From a virus, in the IMG/VR virus record IMGVR_UViG_3300017971_000841, positions 1 to 21,238 of that record: a stretch of 21,238 bases of DNA; one strand, written 5' to 3'. This document shows positions 2,775 through 19,241 of the stretch, piece by piece; the first letter of the stretch is position 1, and every line of letters begins with the position of its first letter. Under the pieces are notes generated by a model. The model worked only from the letters and a program-made list of their open reading frames with translations, searched no databases and was not told the origin of the DNA. The translations under genes and the position numbers were made by a program.

Positions 2775-4763
2775 ATGCCAGTTAAAGTTGAACGTTGTGT
2801 GAAAGATCTACTTAAAGATTCGAAATTTAAGCCAAATCTTCCACAAAAGAAAAGAGAACAATCAGCTTGGGCTATTTGTCAAGCTTCTCAGAATAAGAAA
2901 AATGCCGATCAAATTTTCAGTACACTATATGATCTTCCTTGTAGCGTTTCAATTGAATGTGACGAGAATGGATTTGTTACTTTGGGTGAGAATGAAGAAG
3001 TTGAAGATCAAGTTTTTTCAGATGATGGTGAACTTGATGAATTAAATTTTGATTTGTATTTTGATGAAAATGGTGATTCTGATAAGTTAAAAGGTTATTC
3101 TATTTTCAAAGAAATTAAATTAGAAGATGAAAAAGAAAAAAAGAAAGTAGAAGCTGAAGTTGAAGTTGCTACTGAATATATTCCTGTTTCAACGAAGCTT
3201 GAACTTTTACGTCAAGGAAATTATAAACATCCTTGGTATGGAGAAATTGTTTTTGATAAGAAATATTTTGTTAGTTGTATTCAGAACTTTGTAAATGATG
3301 TTGTTCAACGAGAGATTTCCTTTGATGCTCAACACATGCCATGGCTTGGTGCTGTTGCATGGCTCAAGAAGTTGATGCTCCGACGACGTTCTTTCAAGAA
3401 TGATGTCAATCGTTGGGTCCTTCTTGGTAAAGCAGACTTCACAGAAGATGGAGAAGAAATGATCCGTAAGAAGCGGTTCAAATATTTCTCCATTGAAGTT
3501 CATGATAATTTTACTGATAGAGAAACAGATGAGGAATACGGCCCTACCGTGATGGGTGGTAGCGTTACTAATAGACCATTCATTCCCGGTATGTTACCGG
3601 TTGAATTGAGTGAGGATGCTTTCAGTGCTAGGGAAACAGAGCCCGGTGGAACTGGTAATGGAAGTATCGTCATGGATGATATTGGAAAACAGGAGGTGGA
3701 AAACAGGAAAGAAATTCAAGCGCTCATTCATGAACTGGATGAGATAATAAAAGAACAACAAGAAATTGATTCTACTGAGTTGCAAATTAAGAAAAAAGTA
3801 CCTGACAGTAAGCTGCCTGATATGGCGTTCGCCCTTGTAAAAAAGGACAGGACAGGAACAGTGTTGAAGCGTTCTTTGCCTCACCATTATTCCGATGTCA
3901 AGTCACCTACGGAAAACAGTTCCGTTGACATAGGGCGGCTCCGTAATGCTTTGGCACGCTGGAATCAAGTAACTGGATTTTCCTCCTCCGAAAAAGCCAA
4001 GGCACAGAAGCATCTTGAGGCGCATGCCAAAGATTTGCTGAAGACCCATAAAAAGAAGCAAGCCGCACCAGCGGTTGAGACATTAACAGAAAAAGGAGTC
4101 GGAAACATGGATATCGAACTGATGATCTCTGATCTTCAGAAGAAGTTCGACGCCTTGGATGACAAGAGTTCCGACCTTGCCAAGGCGTATTCTGAGCAGA
4201 TCAAATCTTTGACTGAAGCTCACGAAGCTGCAGTCAAGACTGCTGCTCAGCAGAAGGAAATGGCTGAGAAGACTGCACAGGAGCAGTCGAAGAAGTTCGA
4301 GGAGCAGGAAGCAAAACTGAAGTCTCTGGAAGAAGCTAATGCAAAGCTCAATGAGCGTTTTGCAGAGGCTGATGAGGAACGTCGGCAATCCAAGATTCAG
4401 CTTTTCTGTGATCGTATGGAGAAGGCTGATCACTTCCCTGCAACCATCGAGGTTGCAAAGAAGTTCCTGCTTGCTTCCAAGAACGAGTTCTCTGTCACTA
4501 CCAAGCTTTCGGAAGATGGTGAGGACGAGAACTACGATCTCATGAAGATCTTCGAGGAATTGCTCAACACTATTCCTAGTGAAAAGCGTGTCATGCTGAC
4601 GCAGACGCTAAAGCAGGAAACAAGTGTTGAGCCTGAATCTCCCACCAAGCCTGGTGAGAAGAAGGTGAAGCTCGAGGATGGCGAGGTCGATATCATGGAC
4701 CCGAAGCGTATCGCTCGTGCAGCGAGGCGCAACAAGTTCAAGACCAAGACTGACGTCCAGTAG
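2775..4763 (+). CDS. Fused prohead maturation protease and scaffold
   Basis: The 662-residue protein appears to join the protease that matures the prohead to the scaffold that shapes it. Residues 1-40 form a small Lys/Cys-containing N-terminal module, followed by an acidic stretch. Residues about 140-285 resemble the Mu gpI-type protease region: SFDAQHMPWLGAVAWLKKL (His187), then a core strand KYFSIEV (Ser239) and GGSVTNRPFIPGMLPVEL, the 'LTN.P' landmark. His187 and Ser239 are my candidates for the catalytic pair, by inference. Residues about 343-425 carry the common phage module LPDMAFALVKK...LRNALARWNQVTGFS. Residues 445-662 are a Lys/Glu/Ala/Gln-rich coiled coil typical of scaffolds. A strong internal start lies at residue 445. 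Composition becomes GC-richer from about position 3300-3540, inside the protease domain. Confidence 0.8.
   Translation: MPVKVERCVKDLLKDSKFKPNLPQKKREQSAWAICQASQNKKNADQIFSTLYDLPCSVSIECDENGFVTLGENEEVEDQVFSDDGELDELNFDLYFDENGDSDKLKGYSIFKEIKLEDEKEKKKVEAEVEVATEYIPVSTKLELLRQGNYKHPWYGEIVFDKKYFVSCIQNFVNDVVQREISFDAQHMPWLGAVAWLKKLMLRRRSFKNDVNRWVLLGKADFTEDGEEMIRKKRFKYFSIEVHDNFTDRETDEEYGPTVMGGSVTNRPFIPGMLPVELSEDAFSARETEPGGTGNGSIVMDDIGKQEVENRKEIQALIHELDEIIKEQQEIDSTELQIKKKVPDSKLPDMAFALVKKDRTGTVLKRSLPHHYSDVKSPTENSSVDIGRLRNALARWNQVTGFSSSEKAKAQKHLEAHAKDLLKTHKKKQAAPAVETLTEKGVGNMDIELMISDLQKKFDALDDKSSDLAKAYSEQIKSLTEAHEAAVKTAAQQKEMAEKTAQEQSKKFEEQEAKLKSLEEANAKLNERFAEADEERRQSKIQLFCDRMEKADHFPATIEVAKKFLLASKNEFSVTTKLSEDGEDENYDLMKIFEELLNTIPSEKRVMLTQTLKQETSVEPESPTKPGEKKVKLEDGEVDIMDPKRIARAARRNKFKTKTDVQ
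4107..4763 (+). CDS. Nested scaffolding protein from an internal in-frame start
   Basis: An ATG at 4107 is in frame with the protease-scaffold gene (codon 445). AAAAGGAG at 4091-4098 stands 8 bases before it, as good a ribosome site as any in the window. Starting here gives a 218-residue product MDIELMISDLQKKFDALDDK... that contains exactly the coiled-coil scaffold (residues about 1-105) and a basic C-terminus ending KRIARAARRNKFKTKTDVQ. This is the arrangement known for lambda C/Nu3 and for many fused phage proteases, where the short form is made in large excess as the scaffold. What is seen is the ribosome site, the frame and the domain boundary; separate expression is inferred. Confidence 0.6.
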   Translation: MDIELMISDLQKKFDALDDKSSDLAKAYSEQIKSLTEAHEAAVKTAAQQKEMAEKTAQEQSKKFEEQEAKLKSLEEANAKLNERFAEADEERRQSKIQLFCDRMEKADHFPATIEVAKKFLLASKNEFSVTTKLSEDGEDENYDLMKIFEELLNTIPSEKRVMLTQTLKQETSVEPESPTKPGEKKVKLEDGEVDIMDPKRIARAARRNKFKTKTDVQ

Positions 4764-4811
4764 GTAGTGAGACCCTACCTGCTTTGAAGTAGAGTTGATA
4801 AAAAGACTCTA
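4759..4811 (+). promoter_or_regulatory. Two hairpins between scaffold and decoration genes
   Basis: The 79-base gap before the decoration gene can fold into two stem-loops. The first, 4759-4783, spans the scaffold stop codon: AGGTAG/CTACCT with extra outer pairs and a 7-base loop. The second, 4790-4811, pairs TAGAGT with ACTCTA around a 10-base A-rich loop. Neither is followed by a T tract, so they look more like mRNA processing or protective structures than terminators. The segment 4798-4816 recurs, with small changes, before the capsid gene. Confidence 0.35.
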
Positions 4812-4842
4812 GGAAAAACCTCACGGTCATTGGAGGAAAAAG

Positions 4843-5277
4843 ATGCGAAATGACGTGATTGGCTATCACAGCTATGATGGTACGGGTCTCACTGAAGAGA
4901 TCCTTGCCTCCATGGAAGGTCTGATCGAAATCTCGATCACGATCGATTCGACTTGTCGTGATACAGCGAATGCCACGACAACAGATCTTCGTCGTGGTTT
5001 GGTGCTCTGGCCTGATACTGCAGTTACCAACGACAACTACACGCAGTTTGATGCTGCTGCGAAGTCTGCTGGTGCTGGTGGTCAGGCGGTTGTACTTGCG
5101 CATCCTGTCGATATCAGCGCTGGTGTCAATATTGTAGCCAAGGCCTACAAAGGATGTGTTCTGAAGCCTGACAAACTCATCGACGACAGTGGTTATACAC
5201 TGACACATTTCGATGCGACGGAGCAGGCGAAGGCTAAGGGTATCATCGTGATGGACAAGAGCACCAACATCCCATAG
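4843..5277 (+). CDS. Head decoration-like protein (lambda gpD-type family)
   Basis: This 144-residue protein lies directly before the major capsid gene, where head decoration (capsid-stabilising) proteins usually lie. The layout TTTDLRRGLVLWPDTA...YTQFDAAAKSAGAGGQAVVLAHPVDISAG...KGCVLKPDKLID follows the decoration-family pattern: a 'G.vL' strand, a 'y..yda.a.dG' turn, then 'a.gil...vd..aG....v...g.v'. No signal peptide or membrane segment is seen. The start is supported by TTGGAGGAAAAAG just upstream. Codons are C/G-ending (ATC, CTC, GAC, AAC), as in the capsid gene, which suggests high expression. The family call comes from pattern and position rather than a diagnostic motif. Confidence 0.65.
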   Translation: MRNDVIGYHSYDGTGLTEEILASMEGLIEISITIDSTCRDTANATTTDLRRGLVLWPDTAVTNDNYTQFDAAAKSAGAGGQAVVLAHPVDISAGVNIVAKAYKGCVLKPDKLIDDSGYTLTHFDATEQAKAKGIIVMDKSTNIP

Positions 5278-5303
5278 GGGTATGGAGTTCGATCCCTGAA
5301 GCC

Positions 5304-5331
5304 ATAAAGAGTTCTAGGAAAGGAGAACCCA
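5304..5331 (+). promoter_or_regulatory. Capsid gene leader with Shine-Dalgarno in a hairpin loop
   Basis: GTTCT (5311-5315) can pair with AGAAC (5324-5328). The loop AGGAAAGG exposes the Shine-Dalgarno just before the ATG at 5332. The segment 5304-5321 (ATAAAGAGTTCTAGGAAA) resembles 4798-4816 (ATAAAAAGACTCTAGGAAA) in the decoration-gene leader. Presenting a ribosome site in a loop could favour initiation or protect mRNA; this is inferred. Confidence 0.4.
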
Positions 5332-6579
5332 ATGGACGACCTGATGAACCACGAACTCCTTCAGCCCCGATACATTTCGAAGGTGCTGGACGAGATCATT
5401 CCCGATACATCGGAATATGCGTTAACGCAGGAAGTTCCGATGGTGACGCAAGATACCGAGCAAGTGATTGTCGATGTTCGTGATAACATCGGCGGTATGA
5501 CCCAGGCTGTTGCTGCTGGTGCTGAGTCACCTACAGTTGAACAGCGTGGACGTAGTCAGTTTCAATTCACGCCTGCTGAGTTCCGTGAAAAGACATTACT
5601 CAGTCGTCGTGACCTTCAGTGTATTCGCAAGATCGGTACTGCCTCGGAGCTGGAAAGTGCTGAGGAGCGTGTGGCCGAGATTGTGGGTGGTCTCCGCTAC
5701 CGTCTCGAGACAAGGATGGAGTGGTGCCGTTGGCAGATGCTCTTCGGAGAACTTGAGATCAATCAGGAAGATGTGCAGTTTACAGTGGACTATGGTATTC
5801 CATCTGACTTCACACCTACCCTGACTGGTACGGATGTGTGGTCCGATCTTGCCAACTCCGATCCCATTGATGATATGCTGGAGTGGGTCTTCCTGTACAG
5901 GCATGAGGGAATCGATCCTGATTACTTCATGATGAACAGAGCTGTCGAAAAGCTCCTGCTTCAGAATGAGCACATTCGGGAACTGGCTGAGGCGCATTTC
6001 ACCAACACCGGCAACACTGAGATGAACACAGCTCGTCTCAATGACATGTTGAAGACATTTGCTGGTTACCCATACAAGACCTACGACAAGGGCTACTACT
6101 TCAAGATGAAGTTAGAGACACCCATCACGCCTGCGAGCACCAGCTTCATCGTGAGCGAGAATACAGGTGTCGAAGCCAGTGACGTCGTGACTGTCGTTCA
6201 CAAGAATGGCTCGCGATATGGTCAGGTGAACATCACTGTGACTCCGACTGGTCTTTCTTTCGCTCACTCCGCAATCGGCGGAACCATGACCTTCCCGGCT
6301 GGTTCCACTGTGCGCATCAAGAAGCAGTTCATCCCTGATGACATCTTCATCGTGCGCGGCAGAATTCCCCCTGGAACTACCGGTGGTACGAACTTTGGTG
6401 AGTTCGTGTCGGTGCCCAGCGAGTACAATGGTGGCTTGCTGAACCCACAGCCTGGTCCGTTTGGGAAGACTGTGATTGATGACGACGGTGATCCACCCAA
6501 GGCTTACATCTTGGCGGGTATCCGTGGTTTGACGGTGCACTACTTCCCAACATGTAACGTGGTTGCTACCGTCGACTAG
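5332..6579 (+). CDS. Major capsid protein (lambda gpE-like family)
   Basis: The 415-residue protein forms the capsid shell. The N-terminal half shows the E-family pattern: LLQPRYISKVLDEIIPD, then a beta region ending FREKTLLSRRDL (residues 84-95), then a long helix with RYRLETRMEWCRWQMLFGEL. Later come a conserved-looking DPIDDMLEWV helix and MMNRAVEKLLLQN. Residues about 260-333 look like an inserted beta-rich domain (ITPASTSFIVSENTG...VRIKKQF) between GYYFKMK and the closing IPDDIFIVRGRIPPG segment. It follows the decoration gene by 54 bases and has a strong AAAGGAGAA site. Its GC-rich, C-ending codons suggest very high expression. A strong hairpin follows the stop. Confidence 0.88.
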   Translation: MDDLMNHELLQPRYISKVLDEIIPDTSEYALTQEVPMVTQDTEQVIVDVRDNIGGMTQAVAAGAESPTVEQRGRSQFQFTPAEFREKTLLSRRDLQCIRKIGTASELESAEERVAEIVGGLRYRLETRMEWCRWQMLFGELEINQEDVQFTVDYGIPSDFTPTLTGTDVWSDLANSDPIDDMLEWVFLYRHEGIDPDYFMMNRAVEKLLLQNEHIRELAEAHFTNTGNTEMNTARLNDMLKTFAGYPYKTYDKGYYFKMKLETPITPASTSFIVSENTGVEASDVVTVVHKNGSRYGQVNITVTPTGLSFAHSAIGGTMTFPAGSTVRIKKQFIPDDIFIVRGRIPPGTTGGTNFGEFVSVPSEYNGGLLNPQPGPFGKTVIDDDGDPPKAYILAGIRGLTVHYFPTCNVVATVD

Positions 6580-6608
6580 TAGCGGGGTAGTACCAGAGAT
6601 TCTCTCAG

Positions 6609-6640
6609 AGGTTGGGGTAGCGGAAACGCTACCCCTTCCT
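6609..6640 (+). terminator. Strong GNRA-capped hairpin after the capsid gene
   Basis: GGGGTAGCG (6614-6622) pairs perfectly with CGCTACCCC (6627-6635) around a GAAA tetraloop. AGG (6609-6611) and CCT (6638-6640) can add three pairs beyond a TT/TT internal loop. The following TTCCTTT is only a weak U tract, so partial termination or mRNA 3'-end protection is likelier than full termination. It sits 34 bases after the capsid stop, the usual place for a terminator that separates the abundant capsid mRNA from genes downstream. Confidence 0.75.
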
Positions 6641-6686
6641 TTGAGGTTCTCATAGAAGATAAAAACCCCGAACAAGAGGAAGTACA

Positions 6687-7064
6687 ATGGCAAAGAAACT
6701 TGATGATTTCGCGGTCGAGATCAACCTTAATGGTTGGTACAACAAAAAAGACAAGAAAAGCTATCGAGCTGGACAGAAGTTCAAGGGTGCTGAAATCACT
6801 GAGCGCATGGTTGAAGCTGTGGAATCTGATGAGTCTTTTTTCAGCAAGAAAACTGGCAAGACTCATCTCGTTGTTGAGTTGCTTGGTGGTGGTTCAGCTT
6901 CTGAGTTGAGAACAGCTTTTGATGCTTATGAACCTGAAAAAGCGAAACCAGAGCCTGTTCCAAAGGCTAAGGTTGAAGAATCTGAACCAAAGAAGAATGA
7001 AGAGAAGAAAACAGAAAAAAAAGAAAAGAAGCCAGTGAGGCGTGCTCGTCCCAGTGATGACTAG
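6687..7064 (+). CDS. Unknown small protein with charged tail
   Basis: I do not recognise this 125-residue protein. Residues 1-80 look like a compact mixed alpha/beta domain (DDFAVEINLNGWYNKKDKKS...HLVVELLGGG). From residue 87 the chain becomes a Pro/Glu/Lys tail (EPEKAKPEPVPKAK...EKKPVRRARPSDD) that is probably disordered and ends with a basic patch. No membrane segment or signal peptide is seen. The ATG follows AAGAGGAAG. The place after the capsid gene is where head-completion, head-fibre or connector accessory proteins are often found, but nothing in the sequence decides its job. Confidence 0.75.
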   Translation: MAKKLDDFAVEINLNGWYNKKDKKSYRAGQKFKGAEITERMVEAVESDESFFSKKTGKTHLVVELLGGGSASELRTAFDAYEPEKAKPEPVPKAKVEESEPKKNEEKKTEKKEKKPVRRARPSDD

Positions 7065-7105: not shown

Positions 7106-7453
7106 ATGGAAAATATAAAAGAAAAAGAAGAAATAATCAGAACACAATACTGGCTTGATGGAATCGATGAAAAGGTTCACGATCAAGTCATAGAAGGTTT
7201 CTTTAGAACGCAAGAAAAAAAGGTTGCTATTTTTCTCAAAGCACGTGGCTATCCAGTTCGTGGTCTGGAAAAGAAAATGATTCGTGTAAGTGGCAACCAT
7301 AAAAAGAAAATTCTTGCATTCTGTTTTGATAGCTGTGTGCGTAGTGCATTTCTTGAATTGTACAATTATGATGATCCAAAACATTTCAATGTAAATGCAA
7401 AAAGAATGCTTGATGCAACACAAGATATTAGTTCAATGATCATCAATTTTTGA
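7106..7453 (+). CDS. Unknown 115-residue protein
   Basis: I do not recognise this protein. It is predicted to be mostly helical, with alternating charged segments: KEKEEIIRTQYWLDGIDEKVHDQVIEG, a basic centre (LKARGYPVRGLEKKMIRVSGNHKKKI), then CFDSCVRSAFLELYNYDD. No membrane helix or signal peptide is seen. Two cysteines are four apart in CFDSC. Translation probably depends on opening the upstream hairpin that holds its ribosome site. It ends 11 bases before the holin-like gene and could belong with it or with head completion. Confidence 0.7.
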   Translation: MENIKEKEEIIRTQYWLDGIDEKVHDQVIEGFFRTQEKKVAIFLKARGYPVRGLEKKMIRVSGNHKKKILAFCFDSCVRSAFLELYNYDDPKHFNVNAKRMLDATQDISSMIINF

Positions 7454-7464
7454 GGGAGAGAACA

Positions 7465-7776
7465 ATGGACCAGATCATTCCAGTTAGTCAAGTAGTCACG
7501 TTGCAAAATCTTGTTGTCATTTTGGTGATTCAAGGTGTGCTCGAGGCTATTAAGGCTACTCTGAGAAAACTGAAAGTGTTGGACAAGAAGGGTATTCAAA
7601 TTATTCTTCCATACTCACCAATGCTTCTTGGTGCAGCTATTGCATTTATTCCTGGTGCGTTGGTTGCTGATAGTCTTGGAGCACGCATCATGCTCGGTGT
7701 AGCGCTTGGTGCTATTGGTGGTCAGGTGTGGAAGATTTTCCATACGAAGATAAGTGTCCTTAAAGGGAAAGTTTGA
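7465..7776 (+). CDS. Holin-like small membrane protein
   Basis: This 103-residue protein has two or three membrane helices: about residues 10-28 (VVTLQNLVVILVIQGVLEAI), 45-66 (QIILPYSPMLLGAAIAFIPG) and 73-90 (ARIMLGVALGAIGGQVW), with basic ends and a Lys-rich C-terminus. Size, topology and charge fit phage holins, which open the inner membrane for lysis. I chose the ATG at 7465, with GGGAGAG before it, over the in-frame TTG at 7450 that would overlap the preceding stop. Its stop shares bases with the next start (TGATG at 7774-7778), coupling it to the spanin-like genes. No endolysin gene is in the window. Function is inferred. Confidence 0.6.
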   Translation: MDQIIPVSQVVTLQNLVVILVIQGVLEAIKATLRKLKVLDKKGIQIILPYSPMLLGAAIAFIPGALVADSLGARIMLGVALGAIGGQVWKIFHTKISVLKGKV

Positions 7777-8132
7777 TGTCCTTCAGTTTGATAGTCAGCT
7801 GGATCAAGACCAATGCAGTCAAAATACTGCTAGTAGTTTTGCTTGTTCTCACTCTTGTGTTGGTGGCTTGTGCTTGGTGGCTTAAGATAAAGGGTTTTAA
7901 GGTTAGTGATTTACTTCTTCGTTTGCAGGTGGCTAATGCGAAGAATGAAATGAATCACCTGCAAACGAAGAAGGCAGTTTTAGAAACAAAAAAGAATTTT
8001 ACTAAAGAACAAATGCAAGAAATTGAGAATGAAATCAAAGAAGAGCATAAGAAGATTGAAAGAGGTAAGATGAAGATAGAGGGGATGAGTGATGATGAAG
8101 TTGCTCGCCGTTTTACTGAGCTTGGCTTTTAG
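7776..8132 (+). CDS. Membrane-anchored coiled-coil protein, candidate inner-membrane spanin
   Basis: The 118-residue protein has one N-terminal membrane helix (about 16-37, VKILLVVLLVLTLVLVACAWW). A long charged helix follows (about 45-100, rich in Lys, Glu and Gln), the layout of Rz-type i-spanins. The ATG at 7776 overlaps the previous TGA. The next gene starts out of frame inside this one (8092) and overlaps it by 41 bases, reminiscent of Rz/Rz1 nesting. The coding region contains a perfect 18-bp inverted repeat at 7914-7973 that encodes part of the coiled coil. The spanin role is inferred from topology and neighbours; other membrane coiled-coil virion proteins would look similar. Confidence 0.55.
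   Translation: MSFSLIVSWIKTNAVKILLVVLLVLTLVLVACAWWLKIKGFKVSDLLLRLQVANAKNEMNHLQTKKAVLETKKNFTKEQMQEIENEIKEEHKKIERGKMKIEGMSDDEVARRFTELGF
7914..7973 (+). repeat. Perfect 18-bp inverted repeat with 24-nt loop, inside a gene
   Basis: CTTCTTCGTTTGCAGGTG (7914-7931) is exactly reverse-complementary to CACCTGCAAACGAAGAAG (7956-7973), separated by 24 bases. It lies wholly inside the reading frame of the 7776 gene. A match this long is far beyond chance for a window of this size. In mRNA it would be a very stable stem-loop, and in single-stranded DNA a hairpin. Two similar elements occur at 11932-11995 and 13777-13827. Confidence 0.95.
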
Positions 8133-8535
8133 TCAAGTAGTATTTGCGGCAGAAAAATGTACGAATACTGAAGGTGAAGAGTTAATTTGTTTTAAACCTG
8201 ATAAAGCAAAAGAATTATTAGCAGTTGTTCAAGAAGAAAAACCAAGTTTAGAAAGACAAATTGAATTATTAAAGAAAGAATTAAAATTACAAAAAGAGTT
8301 AACAGAACATACTGAAGAACAATTGAAAGTTGAAAGAGAAGAAAATGTACAATGGAAACGAAATTATGAAGATGCGTTGAGAGATGTTGAAGATAAAAGA
8401 AGGAAAGTTGATTTTAGAAAAGATATTGGTATTTATACTCATCTTGGTATGTTTGTTTTAGGTGCTGCAATTGGTGGAGTAGTAATGTATTGTTCTTCTT
8501 TATTATTGTCTAACACACTACAGAAAGGTAACTAA
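8092..8535 (+). CDS. Exported coiled-coil protein with C-terminal membrane helix, spanin-partner candidate
   Basis: The 147-residue protein starts with a clear signal peptide (MMKLLAVLLSLAFSQVVFA, probable cleavage before AEK). Cys23 and Cys33 follow and could form a periplasmic disulfide. Residues about 40-105 are a Glu/Lys/Gln coiled coil, and about 117-137 is a membrane helix. There is no lipobox, so it is not a classic Rz1 lipoprotein. The ATG at 8092 has AGAGGGG upstream; GTG 8089 and ATG 8095 are alternatives. It overlaps the preceding gene out of frame by 41 bases, as spanin pairs often do. Coiled coils on both partners would allow complex formation. The function is inferred, and the C-terminal anchor argues for caution. 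Confidence 0.55.
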   Translation: MMKLLAVLLSLAFSQVVFAAEKCTNTEGEELICFKPDKAKELLAVVQEEKPSLERQIELLKKELKLQKELTEHTEEQLKVEREENVQWKRNYEDALRDVEDKRRKVDFRKDIGIYTHLGMFVLGAAIGGVVMYCSSLLLSNTLQKGN

Positions 8536-11864: not shown

Positions 11865-12425
11865 ATGAATCCAGAGAAGTCAAAACTGAAGATAATGATT
11901 GCTAATGATTTTGGTGTGTCGATAGAAGATCGCTTGGAAGGAGAGCTGAAGGCTGCAAATGAATTGGCAGGTGCGTCTTCAGCTCTCCGCCAAGCATCTA
12001 AAAAAGTTCCTTTGGAACTTTGTGCAAAAGTTAGTGAAGAATTTGAAAAAGGAGAAATTAAAGACGGGATGCAATCACATCATATTGCACAACTTGTGAA
12101 AAAATATTTAATTCGAGCTGGAGATTTTCTAAATCATCTTGCTGATGTTGAACAACAGAAAGCTGTTTCTCAATTTGGGAGAGCAGCTGGTCTTCAAGAA
12201 GCTGTCAAGATGATAAAGAAAGTACAAGAAGAAGAAAATGAACGTCTTCAAGGATTTTCGTCTGTTTCTGATGATAAACTCAGGACAGCATCTTCAATTG
12301 CAAGAGCCGAGCATGGTACGGCAGCTGAAAGAAAAAAAATCGCTGAAGATAAAAAGAAAAAAACAACAAAAAAGAAAACTACTAGAAAGAAGACTTCCAA
12401 GAAGAAAGTAAAACTGAATGACTAG
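11865..12425 (+). CDS. Unknown helical protein with Lys-rich tail
   Basis: I do not recognise this 186-residue protein. Residues 1-140 are predicted to be almost entirely helical (DRLEGELKAANELAGASSALRQASKK, HIAQLVKKYLIRAGDFLNHLADVEQQKAVSQFGRAAGLQEAVKMIKK). The last 30 residues are a Lys/Thr run (KKKTTRKKTSKKKVKLND) like a histone H1-type tail, which suggests nucleic-acid contact. The gene begins after AAGAGGAAACC. An 18-bp inverted repeat lies at 11932-11995, 67 bases after the start codon. The end overlaps the next gene by 8 bases. A DNA-binding or assembly-chaperone role would be speculation. Confidence 0.75.
   Translation: MNPEKSKLKIMIANDFGVSIEDRLEGELKAANELAGASSALRQASKKVPLELCAKVSEEFEKGEIKDGMQSHHIAQLVKKYLIRAGDFLNHLADVEQQKAVSQFGRAAGLQEAVKMIKKVQEEENERLQGFSSVSDDKLRTASSIARAEHGTAAERKKIAEDKKKKTTKKKTTRKKTSKKKVKLND
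11932..11995 (+). repeat. Near-perfect 18-bp inverted repeat with 25-nt loop, inside a gene
   Basis: GCTTGG-AA-GGAGAGCTGAAG (11932-11951) pairs with CTTCAGCTCTCC-G-CCAAGC (11977-11995): 12 plus 6 perfect pairs broken by an AA/G internal loop, around a 25-base loop. It encodes part of the helical N-terminus of the host gene. It has the same architecture as the perfect repeat at 7914-7973. Confidence 0.93.
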
Positions 12426-12903
12426 TGGTATTAGAGGCGAGACAGTTGATGAAATTCTTTGGTTGGAACAAACTAGTTCTCCAACCGAAGAAGGTATGAC
12501 TAGATATGTAAGTGGGAGTTTTGAATTTGTAGATAGCAGTGGTGTATTCGATCCTAGAACTGGTGGTGGTGGAATTTCAGAAGCACAACATAAAGTGCTT
12601 CGACAGCTAATACACTTTATTGATGATGGACCAGCAGAAGGTTTTACTAGTGGAGCATATAAAGAAACAACTCCTACAGGATCTCTTTTCCCAACAGCAG
12701 AAGTTTGGTATACAGATTCTGGTAAAACAGATAAAATAGTTGAATTATTAACAACATGGACAGCTATTAATCCTACACAAGAAAAATGGAAAATATATGA
12801 TACAGATGGATCTACTGTTTTATGGACAATTACTGATGCTATTTCTTATTCTGGCGTTGTTGAAACAAATAGAACTAGAACTATAACATCTGGTGATGCA
12901 TAA
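12418..12903 (+). CDS. Fibre/receptor-binding-like protein
   Basis: The 161-residue protein contains a block I associate with phage fibre proteins: SEAQHKVLRQLIHFIDDGPAEGFTSGAYKETTP, residues about 54-86. A beta domain follows (FPTAEVWYTDSGKTDKIVELLTTW, then KWKIYDTDGSTVLWTITDAISYSGVVETNRTRTI). No signal peptide is present. It overlaps the previous gene by 8 bases and the next start by one base (TAATG), so the three are likely translated together. The precise role (fibre subunit or adaptor) is not shown by the sequence. The mRNA can fold into hairpins at 12457-12490 and 12580-12620. Confidence 0.68.
   Translation: MTSGIRGETVDEILWLEQTSSPTEEGMTRYVSGSFEFVDSSGVFDPRTGGGGISEAQHKVLRQLIHFIDDGPAEGFTSGAYKETTPTGSLFPTAEVWYTDSGKTDKIVELLTTWTAINPTQEKWKIYDTDGSTVLWTITDAISYSGVVETNRTRTITSGDA
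12457..12490 (+). other. Eleven-pair hairpin (one G-U) near gene start
   Basis: CTTTGGTTGGA (12457-12467) pairs with TCCAACCGAAG (12480-12490) with one G-U pair and a 12-base loop. It begins 40 bases after the ATG of the 12418 gene. The G-U pair suggests selection at RNA level, if it is functional. Confidence 0.45.
12580..12620 (+). other. Two mutually exclusive hairpins
   Basis: GAAGCAC (12580-12586) pairs with GTGCTTC (12595-12601). Alternatively ATAAAGTG (12590-12597) pairs with CACTTTAT (12613-12620). Both use 12595-12597, so only one can form at a time, as in an attenuator-like switch. Both stems are perfect but short (7 and 8 bp) and may be coincidental. Confidence 0.3.
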
Positions 12904-14363
12904 TGGCTAAATCACCTGCATCTGTTATTGTTGATTACACTACTCCAGATAATAAAGCTGGAGTTAATTCTAGTGGCCAGTTATCTATTCAGAATCCACC
13001 TAATTTAGATGCTGCTATCTCAACGAGAGCGACTGAATCAACACTTTCATCAGTATTATCGCAACTTGATATTACATTAGCTCAACTGAGAGATGCTATA
13101 CGAGGAACTAGCGATAAAACACTAACTGATCTTGAAACAACTCTTGATTCAATTAAAGATGATGGAATCAAAAAAATTACTGATCAATTGCCTGCTGGTA
13201 CTAATGAGATTGGTTTAGTTGCTCAAGGTACTAAAGCTTTAACAACAGCTGCGTGGCCAATAACATTACAATCTCGTACTGATGGCGATGATGTAGTAAT
13301 GGATGAAGGCACGGCTTTAGGTTCAGCTCGTCCAGGTATTGTTGTACAACATTGCGATCTTGATGGAAATGCATCTATACCAAAAGCTTCATCTCTTGAT
13401 ACAGGTAATAGTTCTACAGCTCAGCTTAATACTGATGCTGCTTTTATTGGTACAGGTGTTGATTGTATTGGTTATTCATCTGTAGCCATTACAATACATT
13501 CTGATAAAGATAGCGCTGTAGATGGTATGAAATTTCAATTTTCAATGGATAATACTAATTGGGATGATAGTTATAATTTTAATTTGGAAGCCAGCAGTTC
13601 TCAAACAAGACGTTTTCAATTTCCAATTTGTGCTAGATATTTTAGGTTTAATTATACTAATGGTTCAGAGACTACTACTGAATTTCGTGTTCAAACAATT
13701 CTTCATAGACAAAATATTTTAACATCAATTCATCGTGTCGAGAATGTTGTTAAGGAAGATCGAAGCGCACAACTTGTGAAGTCTGTACTTATCGCTCAGC
13801 GTGAAGGAGCTGTTAGTACAGACTTCAATCCAATTTACGCTGATGTTAGTGGTAATCTTAAAGTTACAACGATTGGTACAGATATTCCATCAAATCCATC
13901 AGACCTTGTACTTGAATTTCTTGAGAATGGTGGTAGTGAAAATATGCTAGTTGATGGAACAACGCCTGTTTCTTTTAAAAGTGGACCGACAATTACTGAT
14001 GAAGTTTGGTCTATTCGTGAATTATTATTAACTTTTTCTGCTGATGATTTTACATTTGATGGCTTATCATTTGGTCCAAATGCGAAACTTACTAATGGTT
14101 TTGTTGTTGAAGTAGTTAAAGATTCAGTAACAACTGAAGTTTTTTGTGTCAAACAAAATGAAGATTTTCTTCGTGTTCCTGGTCGAACTCCTCTTGTAAA
14201 TAATACTGGTCCAAAAGATATTCTTGGAGCAGGACTTGCATTTCAAGGACTTGTTTTAAATGAAGCTACTAGTGATGTTGTACAAATAAGAATTAGAGAT
14301 AATCTTACGTCTGTTAAGTATAAATATCTTACAGCTACATTGTTTGCTGTTAAGGTGTCATAA
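12903..14363 (+). CDS. Large fibre-like protein with C-terminal recognition domain
   Basis: The 486-residue protein starts with a short virion-docking segment and a helical linker (LDAAISTRATESTLSSVLSQLDITLAQLRDAI) of the type that links fibre domains. A beta-sandwich at about 185-270 (DCIGYSSVAITIHSDKDSAVDGMKFQFSMDNTNWDDSY...ARYFRFNYTN) resembles galactose-binding or fibre-head domains. The C-terminal 165 residues (VLEFLENGGSENMLVDG...IRIRDNLTSVKYKYLTATLF) form a domain that appears shared with the next gene. The start overlaps the previous stop (TAATG). The 13777-13827 inverted repeat lies within it. Confidence 0.72.
   Translation: MAKSPASVIVDYTTPDNKAGVNSSGQLSIQNPPNLDAAISTRATESTLSSVLSQLDITLAQLRDAIRGTSDKTLTDLETTLDSIKDDGIKKITDQLPAGTNEIGLVAQGTKALTTAAWPITLQSRTDGDDVVMDEGTALGSARPGIVVQHCDLDGNASIPKASSLDTGNSSTAQLNTDAAFIGTGVDCIGYSSVAITIHSDKDSAVDGMKFQFSMDNTNWDDSYNFNLEASSSQTRRFQFPICARYFRFNYTNGSETTTEFRVQTILHRQNILTSIHRVENVVKEDRSAQLVKSVLIAQREGAVSTDFNPIYADVSGNLKVTTIGTDIPSNPSDLVLEFLENGGSENMLVDGTTPVSFKSGPTITDEVWSIRELLLTFSADDFTFDGLSFGPNAKLTNGFVVEVVKDSVTTEVFCVKQNEDFLRVPGRTPLVNNTGPKDILGAGLAFQGLVLNEATSDVVQIRIRDNLTSVKYKYLTATLFAVKVS
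13777..13827 (+). repeat. Perfect 13-bp inverted repeat with 25-nt loop, inside a gene
   Basis: TGAAGTCTGTACT (13777-13789) is exactly reverse-complementary to AGTACAGACTTCA (13815-13827), with 25 bases between. Inside the loop CAGC and GCTG can pair to extend the structure. It lies in the fibre gene at the junction between its middle and C-terminal domains. It belongs with the elements at 7914 and 11932 by architecture. Confidence 0.9.
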
Positions 14364-15346
14364 TGGGTTATAATAAAGATTCGTCTGGTAATCCTATCTA
14401 TGCTTCTCCGATTCGGGTGCCCGCTCGTGTTGCTTTCAAAAGAACCGATAATGGCAGTGAGTTGATGAATATTGATGGTGAAGCTGGAGGAACACCAACG
14501 ATAATTTGGGATGGAGAAGGTACTTATTGGACGCCAGGTGGGACTGGTTCAGCAACAACTGGATCTAAACATACTGGGACTTATGGTTGGGATACAGGTT
14601 CTACCATTAAAGATAATACTACTTATTGGGATTATGGCTCAGATCAAGATATCAGTGCTTATGCTACATTGACATTTTGGATGCAACCAAAAGCTTTTCC
14701 TACAGATAGCGAATTTCAGATCTTTTGGAAAACAAATGCTGGCGTTGTCCATGGGAGTACTCTTCAAGTTGAAGATTATGTTAGTAATATGGATTTAGAT
14801 GTTTGGCAACAGGTTACAATTCCAATTGAAGATTTTAATTTAGTTTCTAATGTTGCTGAACTATGGTTCAAATATACTAAAAAAGATGGTCAACAATTTT
14901 GGTTTGATGAATTAAGTCTTAATACATCTGGTGGTGGCGGTCCATTCACATTTCGTGTTGAGGCTCCAGAAGGTTATATTTATCATACATCTGTTATTGT
15001 CTTGTTGATTGCTGGCACGTCTTCAGGATGGGATCACGATGTCTTTGGCTCGCTCAGTAGTGCTTTAGCTAATGGATTACTCCTACGTCAACGTCGATTG
15101 TCGACATCAGAAACTTTGTGGTCTATTAATGCTAAAGATAATATTGAATTGTTTGGTTTATATCATCCACAAGATGATGTGACATTTGCTGATTCAATAT
15201 TGCTATTAGGATTTATGGTTAAGCCAAGTAAAGATTCTATTTTGATTACTGATGATGATGTATTGGAATATGTTGTGAGAGATGATTTGAGTAGCTTAAA
15301 TACAACACGAGCCTTCGTCCATGGTGGTAAGGAGGCTGTGTCATGA
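14363..15346 (+). CDS. Fibre protein with carbohydrate-binding-like domain
   Basis: The 327-residue protein has a short docking segment (NPIYASPIRVPARVAFKRTDNGSELMNIDG). Residues about 50-190 form a jelly-roll-like domain similar in pattern to carbohydrate-binding modules: TGTYGWDTG, the core ISAYATLTFWMQPKAFPTDSEFQIFWK, DLDVWQQVTIPIEDFNL and QQFWFDELSL. A Gly-rich hinge (SGGGGPF) follows. The C-terminal domain (residues about 197-325) parallels the C-terminus of the previous gene. The start overlaps the previous stop (TAATG) and the end overlaps the next start (ATGA). Binding of a cell-surface glycan is a reasonable inference. Confidence 0.72.
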   Translation: MGYNKDSSGNPIYASPIRVPARVAFKRTDNGSELMNIDGEAGGTPTIIWDGEGTYWTPGGTGSATTGSKHTGTYGWDTGSTIKDNTTYWDYGSDQDISAYATLTFWMQPKAFPTDSEFQIFWKTNAGVVHGSTLQVEDYVSNMDLDVWQQVTIPIEDFNLVSNVAELWFKYTKKDGQQFWFDELSLNTSGGGGPFTFRVEAPEGYIYHTSVIVLLIAGTSSGWDHDVFGSLSSALANGLLLRQRRLSTSETLWSINAKDNIELFGLYHPQDDVTFADSILLLGFMVKPSKDSILITDDDVLEYVVRDDLSSLNTTRAFVHGGKEAVS

Positions 15347-16215
15347 GTATTAATCTTAAATATTCTCCTGAATCTACTTATGGTCATCCTCTTGTTGAAA
15401 GATCGCCGTTAGCAGGTAGTAAGACTAATAAGATTTCTCCTAATTGGTGCAATAAAACTACTTGGTATTCTGATTCTACACGGAATACAGATATTACTAT
15501 GACAGATTCTGGTGACCATACAACTTATAATCTTCCTACACCTGGATATTGTGTTGATGTAAAAAATGGCGAATTGACACATGAGAATTCTCTTGTTTCT
15601 ACATATGGATATGTTTGTAAAGTTAATGATGTTGAAAAGACAGAAAATTCTCCTGGTACCACAGATGGAGATTATTCTGTTAACTATGCAACAGGGGCCG
15701 TTACTTTTAATGAAGCTCTTGTAGGAACTGAGACAGTTACATCTACACATAGCAAAGTTGGTAATAGTGAATGGAAAGTCGAACCTATGTCAGGAAAGGT
15801 TCTTAGAATTGCAGAAGTGGAAGTTCAATTGTCGGCTGATTTAGTGATGAGTGATTCTATTGAATTTATTGCTTATGCAGAAGTTGGTAAATTTCCTCCA
15901 TTCGAACCTTATCGTCAAGCTAATGGTGGTCCTTATCCAGATGGTACAAATCTTCCTATTAGAAGTCTTGAATATAAGACAATTAGAGACTTTATCAATG
16001 AAGCTAATGGAGCTTATCCAGCTATTATTGCATTTGGTGGAACTAATTGGCGCGCATTGGAAGAAGATATGTATATTTTTAGATGGGCCTATCAAGCTTC
16101 TGAAGATATTAGAAGTGATTGGGGAATGTATCTCACGATTGGTCTTAAAGACGATAATGAACAAACTGGTTCCTTTGCTTACACAACTCTTTATTGCTTG
16201 AGTGATGATTTGTAA
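15343..16215 (+). CDS. Virion beta protein of the fibre cluster
   Basis: The 290-residue protein starts INLKYSPESTYGHPLVERSPLAGSKTNKISPNWCNKTTWY, a segment I associate with phage structural proteins near fibres. A beta domain then carries an LTHENSLVSTYGYVCKVNDVEKTE...DYSVNYATGAVTFNEAL hairpin set (residues about 80-130), and a second beta domain follows (about 145-290). No membrane helix is present. Its ribosome site AAGGAGG (15329-15335) can be partly paired with CCTT at 15312-15315. It overlaps the fibre gene before it and the patatin gene after it, so it is part of the same translation unit. Confidence 0.65.
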   Translation: MSINLKYSPESTYGHPLVERSPLAGSKTNKISPNWCNKTTWYSDSTRNTDITMTDSGDHTTYNLPTPGYCVDVKNGELTHENSLVSTYGYVCKVNDVEKTENSPGTTDGDYSVNYATGAVTFNEALVGTETVTSTHSKVGNSEWKVEPMSGKVLRIAEVEVQLSADLVMSDSIEFIAYAEVGKFPPFEPYRQANGGPYPDGTNLPIRSLEYKTIRDFINEANGAYPAIIAFGGTNWRALEEDMYIFRWAYQASEDIRSDWGMYLTIGLKDDNEQTGSFAYTTLYCLSDDL

Positions 16216-17006
16216 TGGATGTTGTTGGCGCAGGTTGTGGAGCTAATTACGGTATTATTGCTGGTGCATTAGCTCGTTTGTTAGATGATGGTCTTGAACC
16301 TTCTTCATATATAGCTACATCTGGTTCTTCAATAGTTTTATCTTTTTTAGCTGATGGTAGGTTACCATCAGATTTTTTGAAAATTGCTCAAGATTATACT
16401 CCTATTAAACTTATGAAACCAAATAGAATGTGGCCTATTATTCCTGGCTTGGTTGTGATGAATGGAATTGCTGATGCAATGGATCCATATATTCCAAGAA
16501 CTTTTGCTAAATGTAAAGTACCTTTGACAATTGTTGTAACTGATTCTGATATGATGAAACCTTATTATTTTTCTTCAGCTATGACACCAAAAGTTAGCGT
16601 AGCACGTGCATTGCAAGCAGCAATTTCAGTACCTTGGCTTGCTCGTCATGTGGTAATAAATGGTATTCGTGCTACTGATGGTGGAACTACTCATCATTTT
16701 CCTATTGATTTACCTGAGAAACCTGCTCTTGGGATTCGTGTGCAAGGAGCAGATAGCGATCCTAAACCATGGAGATGGTGGGGTACTTATAGTTTAAATC
16801 ATTTTGGTGCTATGCTTAGAGCACATGAAAATGCTCATATAAAAAATGCTTTATGGAAGAAATCAAAAATTCTTACAATACCTTCAATAATTAATAGTTC
16901 AGATTATCGTCTTGTTGATGGTGCAATGTTAAAACAATTGTATTCAATTGGTTTTCAATATACAGATGAGAAACTCTCTTCAGGATGGACGTGGAGAACA
17001 TTATGA
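16215..17006 (+). CDS. Patatin-like phospholipase
   Basis: The 263-residue protein shows the patatin fold signatures. A Gly-rich oxyanion loop opens the chain (VVGAGCGANYGIIAGALARLLDDG, residues 3-26). The nucleophile elbow is IATSGSS with Ser36, departing from the usual G-x-S-x-G. SVARALQAAISVPWL (128-142) and the catalytic Asp155 in ATDGGTTHHFPID follow. Patatins hydrolyse acyl chains of phospholipids. There is no signal peptide, so it would act from the cytoplasm, from the virion, or after holin action. The gene is joined by TAATG to a fibre-cluster gene and by ATGA to the receiver gene. A phospholipase among structural genes may help membrane damage at entry or lysis; that role is inferred. 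Confidence 0.82.
   Translation: MDVVGAGCGANYGIIAGALARLLDDGLEPSSYIATSGSSIVLSFLADGRLPSDFLKIAQDYTPIKLMKPNRMWPIIPGLVVMNGIADAMDPYIPRTFAKCKVPLTIVVTDSDMMKPYYFSSAMTPKVSVARALQAAISVPWLARHVVINGIRATDGGTTHHFPIDLPEKPALGIRVQGADSDPKPWRWWGTYSLNHFGAMLRAHENAHIKNALWKKSKILTIPSIINSSDYRLVDGAMLKQLYSIGFQYTDEKLSSGWTWRTL
16240..16275 (+). repeat. 8-bp inverted repeat with 20-nt loop in the patatin gene
   Basis: GAGCTAAT (16240-16247) is reverse-complementary to ATTAGCTC (16268-16275), 20 bases apart, near the start of the gene. It may be a short member of the long-loop family seen at 7914, 11932 and 13777, or a coincidence. Confidence 0.35.
16351..16377 (+). terminator. Terminator-like hairpin inside the patatin gene
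   Basis: CTGATGGTA (16351-16359) pairs perfectly with TACCATCAG (16363-16371) around a GGT loop. It is followed by ATTTTTTG, giving six T residues. The form matches an intrinsic terminator but lies in coding sequence, so active translation would normally suppress it. It could make expression of the downstream receiver gene depend on translation of the patatin. Confidence 0.45.
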
Positions 17007-17506
17007 AGGTTTTGGTTATTGAAGATGATAACACTATTGCTCGTGCGATTACAATTACATTATCAAAATATGGTCATGAATATTTACATGTACGTACTTT
17101 AAAAGAATTTAAAGAAGAATTTGATGAATATTTTCCTGATGCAATTATTTTAGATCTTGGATTACCAGATTCGTTTGGTGTTGAAACTGTAATAAACGTT
17201 AAAAATGTGATTTATCCAGAAACTTTGGTTATAATATATACAGCTAATGATTATGTGTTCAATGAAGTTATGGATATTGGTGTTGATAATTTTTTAGTAA
17301 AAGGTCATTTTAAACCTAGTGATTTACCTAATATTCTTAATATGGCAAAAATTAATCATAAATTTCATAATGTACTTAATAAACATAAAAAAATGATGGA
17401 TGGAGAAGAAACTACTTGGCCTGGTAAATCAATAGATACAGACAAGATTGGTGATGGTTTAATATTGTTAGCTCAGGAGTTAAAAACTGTGGTGGAAAGT
17501 GGGTAG
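17003..17506 (+). CDS. Stand-alone response-regulator receiver domain
   Basis: The 167-residue protein has a complete CheY-like receiver domain. The acidic pocket is Glu7-Asp8-Asp9 (MKVLVIEDDN), the phospho-acceptor is Asp51 in AIILDLGLPDSFGVE, and the switch residue is Thr80 in VIIYTAND. Lys100 lies in DNFLVKGHF, and the fold spans residues 1-118. The C-terminal 50 residues are charged and probably helical, with no DNA-binding or enzyme domain. I chose ATG 17003, overlapping the patatin TGA, with GTGGAG before it, over ATG 16985 within the patatin gene. All key residues are intact, so it can probably accept phosphate from a host kinase. Its target may be the neighbouring patatin or the membrane protein, by inference. 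Confidence 0.85.
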   Translation: MKVLVIEDDNTIARAITITLSKYGHEYLHVRTLKEFKEEFDEYFPDAIILDLGLPDSFGVETVINVKNVIYPETLVIIYTANDYVFNEVMDIGVDNFLVKGHFKPSDLPNILNMAKINHKFHNVLNKHKKMMDGEETTWPGKSIDTDKIGDGLILLAQELKTVVESG

Positions 17507-17509
17507 AAA

Positions 17510-17980
17510 ATGCCTCCAAGTATCAATCAAGAATTATTAGGGAGGCTTGCTCAAGGTCTCGAAGAAAGTGGTCATGCGCTGAAGGCTCAAAGTGCTAAGC
17601 TTACACAGATTTGTGTTCAAGTTGGTAGTATTGAAACTCAATTAGTAAGTGCTCATGCTCGTTTGAAAAAGCTTGAAGAAAAGATTGATGGAAATGGAAA
17701 TCAAGGATTACGTACAGATATTGCACTTGCTCGTAAAGAGATTAGTGGTATATCAGAAACATTAAAAGGTCTTCAAATTTGGCGTAGAGAACTTGGTGAT
17801 AAAAAGTTTAATGAATTGAAAACTGAAGCTCGTCAAGATAAGAATTTAAGATGGATGGTTGTTCTTGCATTAGCATCTATGTTAATCGCATTAGGATCTC
17901 TTGTTGGAACATGTGGTCCAAAATTACTTAAAGCTATTGGAGATGAACCGCCAGTTATTACTCAACCAATCAAACCTTAA
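17510..17980 (+). CDS. Coiled-coil protein with C-terminal membrane helix (XhlA-like layout)
   Basis: The 156-residue protein has an N-terminal helical region and coiled coil (residues about 5-60, SAKLTQICVQVGSIETQLVSAHARLKKLEEKIDGNGN). A second helix spans about 68-112, a membrane helix 114-134 (RWMVVLALASMLIALGSLVGT), and a short Pro-rich tail follows. This order (coiled coil, then terminal membrane helix) resembles XhlA-type phage membrane proteins and other small virion or lysis proteins. It starts 3 bases after the receiver stop. It could tether the receiver or patatin to the membrane, but that is speculation. A candidate promoter follows the gene. Confidence 0.7.
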   Translation: MPPSINQELLGRLAQGLEESGHALKAQSAKLTQICVQVGSIETQLVSAHARLKKLEEKIDGNGNQGLRTDIALARKEISGISETLKGLQIWRRELGDKKFNELKTEARQDKNLRWMVVLALASMLIALGSLVGTCGPKLLKAIGDEPPVITQPIKP

Positions 17981-18044: not shown

Positions 18045-19241
18045 ATGGCATGGGTTAGATTAACAATCTACATTGAAGATATTGATGATGTCTGTGAAGA
18101 TTATGATTTTATCGATATTTGGCGTGCTGAAACACGTTATGGAACTTATACACAATTAACAAACAGAAATACTCGTCTTAGAATTTGTGCTGATACTCAT
18201 TATTATGATTATGATGACGAGAATGGATCTGAATTCTATTGGTACAAGTGGAGATATACAACTAGTAATGGTCCTATCAGTGAGTTCTTTGAGCCTGTTC
18301 AAGCTTATACTCCATACATTATTTATTGTGGATTCGAAGATGTGAGAAGAATTCTTCGTGCAAAAAAGTATGAAGGTCGTATTCGTTTTTCTGATAGCTA
18401 TCGTAACTTAAGAAAAGGTGATGATACTCAAGATATTTCTTTAGTTGCTCTTTCGATTAGTCCGAAGTATTCTGGAACCGAAGAATATACAATTACATTT
18501 ACAAGTGCTACTGATTTCAAAGTAGAAGTTGGTGAAGAAGCTGCAATTGCAAAGAGACAAATTGGAACAGGTAATATTAGTTCTGATTTTACTTCAGATG
18601 ATAATGTTATTAGAATCAATAGTGATGATTGGTCTGGTACTCCAGTTGCTGATGATACTATTATATTTGAAACAGATAGTCATATGTCGATTCAAGATGC
18701 TCTTTTTTTCATTAGAGATGCAGAAACTCTTGTTGATGTTATTCTTGAAGAAAATCTTGGGTATACGACAGCAAAAGATGATGAGCGTCGATTTGATCGA
18801 GACAGTGTTCCAAAAGCAGTGAGAGCATCTACAGCTCGTTTTGGTGCATTCCTTATTTATACTACAATTTATCAAGAACAAACTATTGCTGGTTTGCCTG
18901 GGAATTTGAATGACATTACAAATGTTACAAATATGAGAGGTGATGATATTTCTACAGTTTCAAAACAAGCAATGCGATACCTACAAGGTTATATAAATAA
19001 ATATAAAGAATTCTTTGATCCAGAAAGCGGTGATGCACTTACAACTGCACCCAAGTGGCTTAAGATTGAGCCAATGTTTGATGCAATGGGTGTTGCGGGT
19101 GTTGGTGAAGGTGTCAAACTTCCATCTATGGATACTTTTTTTGATAGAGCAAATATGTCTTATGCTGGGTTATTAGATTGGGATTTGCTTGGTCTTTCGA
19201 AACTTGAAGTAGAGATGTCGGATAATTATAGCAATGATTAA
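18045..19241 (+). CDS. Head-tail connector-like protein with N-terminal Ig/FN3-like domain
   Basis: The 398-residue protein begins with a beta-sandwich resembling fibronectin type III (residues 1-88, RLTIYIEDIDDVCEDYDFIDIWRAETRYGTYTQLT...FYWYKWRYTTSNGPISEF). Then IIYCGFEDVRRILRAKK resembles the 'Y.t.eDvr..L' start of connector/adaptor proteins of the gp6/gp36 type. A beta insertion (about 130-215, EYTITFTSATDFKVEVG...DDWSGTPVADDTIIFETD) interrupts the helical part. Helices then resume (MSIQDALFFIRDAETLVDVILEE...YLQGYINKYKEF). The position, first in a row leading to the tail tube, supports a neck role. The call is inferred from order and a short motif. Confidence 0.6.
   Translation: MAWVRLTIYIEDIDDVCEDYDFIDIWRAETRYGTYTQLTNRNTRLRICADTHYYDYDDENGSEFYWYKWRYTTSNGPISEFFEPVQAYTPYIIYCGFEDVRRILRAKKYEGRIRFSDSYRNLRKGDDTQDISLVALSISPKYSGTEEYTITFTSATDFKVEVGEEAAIAKRQIGTGNISSDFTSDDNVIRINSDDWSGTPVADDTIIFETDSHMSIQDALFFIRDAETLVDVILEENLGYTTAKDDERRFDRDSVPKAVRASTARFGAFLIYTTIYQEQTIAGLPGNLNDITNVTNMRGDDISTVSKQAMRYLQGYINKYKEFFDPESGDALTTAPKWLKIEPMFDAMGVAGVGEGVKLPSMDTFFDRANMSYAGLLDWDLLGLSKLEVEMSDNYSND

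Follow-up and report, generated by a model that had tools for sequence, protein, structure and literature searches.

In E. coli the patatin gene rssA adjoins rssB, a response-regulator gene whose product carries an output domain and plays a known part with sigma-S; the pair comes without a membrane coil. In phage WO of Wolbachia, genes for a patatin, an ankyrin protein and a ‘holin-like’ protein of fewer than 150 residues (with an N-terminal transmembrane helix and a charged C-terminal coiled coil) lie immediately upstream of the tail module, and have been proposed to form a lytic cassette (PMC9203015); that role is itself a proposal and unproven, and an earlier one was that the patatin serves entry or exit (PMC3173496). 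Signalling domains have also been described in phages or as targets of phage proteins: the cREC domains of jumbo phages are divergent, receiver-like and linked to NAD+/ADPr enzymes (PMC7824862), whilst the phage protein PIT4 binds host histidine kinases, with a suggested role in infection exclusion (PMC10714779). In bacterial MshEN domains, finally, two copies of the motif RLGxx[LVI]2xxG[LVI]2xxxxLxxxLxxQ stand in tandem, each of 24 residues, with a 5-residue spacer (PMC5013675).

Here we describe a phage locus that invites comparison with these. The window (the whole stretch of DNA analysed, its 21,238 bases making up an entire IMG/VR record) is a linear fragment covering part of a phage genome; inside its late structural region, just 5' of the tail genes, genes for a patatin, a receiver and a membrane coiled-coil protein stand side by side (Table 1).

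Table 1. Features of the window discussed in the text; coordinates are those of the window.
Feature	Position	Strand	Size and remarks
Overlapping small membrane genes (three), putatively holin/spanin-like	7450..8535	+	108, 119, 148 aa
Overlapping fibre-like genes (three)	12418..16215	+	directly upstream of patatin, translationally linked
Patatin-like phospholipase	16215..17006	+	263 aa; Pfam PF01734
CheY-like receiver, single-domain	17003..17506	+	167 aa; Pfam PF00072
Coiled-coil protein with one C-terminal transmembrane helix	17510..17980	+	156 aa
Conserved anchor gene, head-tail adaptor-like by position only	18045..19241	+	

The gene order of the window runs from terminase and a Mu-type portal, through a 662-aa protein, the major capsid protein (phrog_29), the three small membrane genes and the fibre-like genes, to the trio and then to the genes at 18045, 19234 and 19848 and a tail tube gene (Phage_tube_2 match, 6e-16). 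The three genes of the trio are real and intact, and their frames and junctions are those given in the preliminary description: the patatin ATG shares bases with the stop codon of the fibre-like gene before it (TAATG), the patatin TGA (17004-17006) overlaps the receiver ATG (ATGA; a longer open reading frame starting at 16985 was set aside), and 3 bases separate the receiver stop from the third ATG. That description also called the upstream genes ‘receptor-binding’, which is plausible, their sole domain match being a weak, sub-threshold one to F5/8-type-C in 12903-14363; the TAATG link itself stands, and in two relatives, G001 and G011, related fibre-like genes likewise lie upstream of the patatin. 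Placement among structural genes suggests that the trio is expressed late. Promoter and terminator scans did no better than shuffled sequences; a terminator-like hairpin does lie inside the patatin frame (16351-16371; 9 pairs, T-rich tail, z -2.92), a stem as long being reached in 29/300 synonymous shuffles. Across 3500-7000 of the window, G+C climbs over the capsid gene, from about 0.33 to 0.52, before falling back.

Relatives were reached through two conserved anchors, the capsid gene and the gene at 18045. Searching with the capsid protein yielded ten related IMG/VR loci, to which an alignment added two; some of these records overlap at 100% (G004 with G005, G002 with G010, G011 with G012), and seven distinct phages (the window, G001, G005, G007, G009, G010 and G011) show the site that lies 5' of the 18045 homologue. 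These fall into five lineage groups, G001 and G010 being about 77-83% identical over aligned DNA and G007 and G009 mostly 91-93%. The 18045 gene, 43-59% identical in five aligned relatives and found also in G011/G012, has a cassette directly 5' of it, between it and the fibre-like genes, in all seven contigs. The window has patatin, receiver and coil/membrane protein, in that order, and G005 has receiver, coil/membrane protein and patatin. In G001 and G010 a membrane/coil protein (117-118 aa) is followed by an MshEN-like protein and patatin; G007 and G009 share the first two of these, followed by a 117-aa non-patatin gene, patatin being absent from the site; and G011 has two membrane/coil genes, an 83-aa basic protein and patatin, with no recognisable sensor. 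Gene order and sensor type are shuffled between groups, yet a small coil protein, its membrane helix clear or probable, recurs in 5/5 groups, with patatin at the site in four of the five and a signalling-domain gene likewise in four. The preliminary description would have counted its model refuted if the three genes never occurred together in other phages; they do so in G005, which carries orthologues of all three at the same site. The trio is no chance grouping, and its position and conservation give good support to the view that it is a real, conserved, late and membrane-linked cassette.

Judged by profile, fold and catalytic dyad, the window patatin belongs to its superfamily despite a variant nucleophile elbow. 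It matches the Pfam Patatin profile at 7.7e-11 (43 bits; curated cut-off 27.7), with no matching family in PHROGs, and its predicted dyad comprises Ser36 (in ATSGSS, a variant of GxSxG) and Asp155 (in DGG). Both S36 and D155-G156-G157 are invariant across five phage orthologues, the elbow reading ATSGS in the window, GVSGS in the sister phage G011 and GxSAG in the other relatives; the window copy lacks both glycines of the canonical motif, which weakens the case for its activity. In an AF2 model (pLDDT 76.9, pTM 0.81) Ser36 sits between a strand (31-35) and a helix (38-46), and the best fold matches in the PDB are PlpD (E 3.2e-13, TM 0.75), CapV and CapE. What is shared with these proteins and with RssA is the catalytic Ser/Asp pair and the overall fold; unlike PlpD and CapV/CapE, the phage patatins come without a barrel or a nucleotide-sensing cassette partner. 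Those at the site share 30-45% identity with the window protein and form one clade in a small tree, apart from both a Fermentibacteria MAG patatin and a distant phage patatin (L055). A hydrophobic export or membrane segment was sought in the window patatin and none was found.

Between G010 and G001, dN/dS by a simple NG86 calculation is 0.162/1.04 for patatin, 0.105/0.80 for the MshEN-like gene and 0.288/0.86 for the coil gene, a pattern that indicates purifying selection on all three in this pair. A single-sequence patatin search of IMG/VR found nothing, nor did tblastn of the window patatin and coil protein against annotated phages, and further scans, with alignments of the patatin and of the coil, brought in no additional member of the family. 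The distant patatin mentioned above lies at an unrelated site (L055/L056): L055 is a 126 kb contig from a different large phage, in which, at 4748-5813, the gene follows directly on that for a 62-aa protein with hydrophobic stretches, within a replication/metabolism region.

The second gene of the trio encodes a receiver (Pfam Response_reg, 1.8e-13, 51.1 bits; cut-off 30.2), whose PDB matches are receiver domains of OmpR-type regulators. Its orthologue in G005 is 38% identical, and both keep the canonical phosphorylation residues (D8, D9, D51, T80 and K100) and have in common a conserved C-terminal extension of ~45 residues (GEExTxPG...GDxLxxxAxE), in which no DNA-binding domain was found. The window encodes no cognate kinase, making this an ‘orphan’ receiver. 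It resembles cREC in being a phage-encoded receiver-like domain, but has canonical residues where cREC is divergent, and its partners are a patatin and a membrane coil; a patatin gene beside a response-regulator gene is likewise what the window shares with rssA-rssB. Matches to the receiver by tblastn in a phage collection were left unused, identity being low and several lying in bacterial-looking records labelled as phage. Two records named ‘Acinetobacter phage MD-2021a’ (CAKLQH020000002.1 and CAKLQF020000003.1) contain rssA, qseB and creB-type genes and look like bacterial DNA.

In G001/G010 and G007/G009 the sensor slot is filled not by a receiver but by a domain of the MshEN (cyclic-di-GMP-receptor) type. 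Against NF053729 (cut-off 38 bits) the proteins of G007 and G009 score above the threshold (48.5 and 44.3) and those of G001 and G010 slightly below it (36.7 and 36.3), and a profile of the phage proteins matches PilF (5.2e-9) and cyclic-di-GMP-bound MshE (5htl, 4.4e-6). Set against the tandem 24-residue motif of MshEN, they retain most of the L, G and Q positions but have lost both motif arginines and have a spacer of 6 residues; they also differ in being small and free-standing. Binding of cyclic-di-GMP may nevertheless be possible, because changes to Arg9 and some other charged MshEN residues shift affinity by no more than fivefold (PMC5013675). No GGDEF domain was found in the records of these phages, which are fragments, and HATPase matches, in G005 and G011, were all below cut-off; any signal would therefore be derived from the host. 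Exchange of one sensor for another at a phage locus is not described in the part of the literature on phages with MshEN, receiver or patatin that we covered.

The third protein of the trio matches no Pfam family. A transmembrane segment (residues 117-135, mean hydropathy 2.25) is followed by a short tail, with the coil predicted from hydropathy and flanking charge to be cytosolic; AF2 gives an all-helical model (helices 7-62, 65-109 and 113-144), of low confidence and too weak for a fold search. The G005 orthologue is 37% identical, and the transmembrane segment is clear in the window, G005 and G011, whilst the call is weak in G001, G010, G007 and G009 (hydropathy 1.16-1.43). As a set, these have the look of proteins anchored in the inner membrane, the coil lying in the cytosol.

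It is to phage WO that the layout is strikingly alike, with a patatin beside a small coil/membrane protein at the head of a tail module. An 85-aa protein of G011 resembles the WO holin-like protein in layout; the 117-118 aa proteins of G001/G010 have a weaker hydrophobic segment, and the window protein is longer and has its transmembrane helix at the C-terminal end. The third gene also differs, being ankyrin in WO and a receiver or MshEN-like domain here, and WO is without a canonical lysis system, whereas the present relatives have endolysins. None of the tblastn searches with three of these patatins against annotated phage records led to phage WO, which may or may not be among those records. 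We therefore compare the two by layout, and suggest that the cassette may work like that of WO without claiming it as a member of the same family.

A Peptidase_M15 endolysin is encoded in six records of relatives and an Amidase_2 in G004 (and hence in the phage it shares with G005), though none was seen in the 21,238-base fragment itself. Since the relatives encode ordinary endolysins, the patatin would not be needed to cut the wall and would be at most an accessory in lysis. The cluster of small membrane genes near the capsid gene has orthologues in G003, G004/G005, G007, G009 and G010; hydropathy, and weak matches of its second gene to Rz-like spanins, hint at a possible holin/spanin-like role.

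Bringing these findings together, we propose that the locus encodes, in a family of large, uncultured tailed phages, a late phospholipase cassette tethered to the inner membrane, with an exchangeable signal input, that acts in the infected cell and most likely assists lysis; we give this a probability of about 0.42, such that the lysis role is our first choice at less than even odds. In such a model the cassette would be made together with the structural proteins, and the coiled-coil protein would lodge in the inner membrane of the host, its coil facing the cytosol. Host state would be sensed, through phosphoryl transfer or cyclic-di-GMP, by the receiver or, in sister phages, by the MshEN-like protein. 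The patatin would be recruited to the inner leaflet, where it might cleave phospholipids late in infection and so contribute, together with an ordinary holin/endolysin system, to weakening the membrane. The membrane-acting module with signalling input that the preliminary description envisaged is a reasonable model, because patatin is present in four of the five groups and MshEN replaces the receiver in two. A strict three-part machine fits less well, given that coil and MshEN persist without patatin in G007/G009 and that patatin and coils occur without a sensor in G011. That the sensor might gate the patatin is an attractive thought; its stronger form, in which host signalling state, read by an orphan receiver or a cyclic-di-GMP-type sensor, would gate a membrane-tethered phospholipase and tune membrane attack or lysis timing, strikes us as unlikely on present evidence.

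The persistence of coil and sensor at the site in G007/G009 can also be read in terms of interference with host signalling, or superinfection exclusion. Here the receiver and MshEN-like proteins would be membrane decoys that titrate phosphoryl groups or cyclic-di-GMP, altering motility, pili or the envelope, with the patatin a separate membrane modifier. Coil/sensor pairs do behave as a unit of inheritance, the homologues of MshEN are pilus ATPases, and PIT4 offers a precedent (PMC10714779); PIT4 is an early gene, however, whereas the cassette sits in a late structural operon, and patatin stays beside the pair or the coil in four of the five groups, leaving this reading rather unlikely but worth keeping in mind. 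The recurrence of the same kinds of protein bears also on whether the genes are simply unrelated cargo, without joint function, at a tolerant insertion site between fibre and tail genes. Variable order and partners would fit that, as would the grouping of the window patatin with that of G011 when capsid identities place the window closest to G001/G010, but receiver and coil orthologues are adjacent in two phages and, with purifying selection in the G010/G001 pair, make mere cargo improbable.

The preliminary description had left the time of action as either lysis or genome entry. Of the two places of action, the interior of the cell has better support than the point of entry, because the patatin has neither an export nor a membrane segment and the coil proteins resemble proteins of the inner membrane whose coil faces the cytosol. 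A virion-borne enzyme, packaged with its partners or fixed close to the head-tail junction, and injected so as to break through the inner membrane, would suit a cassette that always adjoins the adaptor-like gene and is translationally linked to fibre-like genes, and the earlier proposal for WO allowed for entry (PMC3173496); neither a transmembrane coiled-coil protein nor a soluble signalling domain is usual in a virion, however, and shuffled order and loss of patatin from the site in two relatives are unlike a structural component, so that we hold this to be unlikely. Least probable of all, we consider, is an effector recruited from CapV/CapE-like defence phospholipases and turned against co-infecting phages or host defence: CapV and CapE are fold neighbours, and PADLOC weakly matches the patatins of G005 and G010 to effectors, but not that of the window (the window proteins having no defence assignment beyond weak matches), the cassette is without a cyclase or other defence gene, and its position is late.

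The timing of lysis is usually ascribed to a clock intrinsic to the holin. Were the late, membrane-tethered cassette that we favour to operate as outlined, some phages would read the phosphorelay or cyclic-di-GMP state of their host when acting on the membrane. These phages are also a second group in which a patatin heads the tail module, one for which no link in sequence to phage WO was detected, and the WO proposal thereby becomes testable outside an uncultivable endosymbiont. Regarding the host, a search for the anchor gene in 42 genomes of the Candidatus Fermentibacteria phylum found nothing; one genome record, MAG contig L049 of Candidatus Fermentibacteria, is 100% identical to the G002 record, which in turn shares 7.6 kb of identical sequence with the G010 phage, a carrier of the patatin. 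This link comes from binning only and is a weak hint at that host.

Two further features were seen near the endolysin genes of the relatives. The endolysin appears to have been swapped at one locus, the Amidase_2 gene of the G004/G005 phage (L024, 7554-8363, minus strand) having on either side homologues of the neighbours of the Peptidase_M15 gene of G011 (L047, 7521-7997, plus strand). Adjoining the former is a gene for a pyruvoyl-dependent arginine decarboxylase (L024, 6983-7540, minus strand; PF01862, 7.4e-56), an unusual metabolic gene for a phage, of which G011 (L047) carries a 64% identical homologue.
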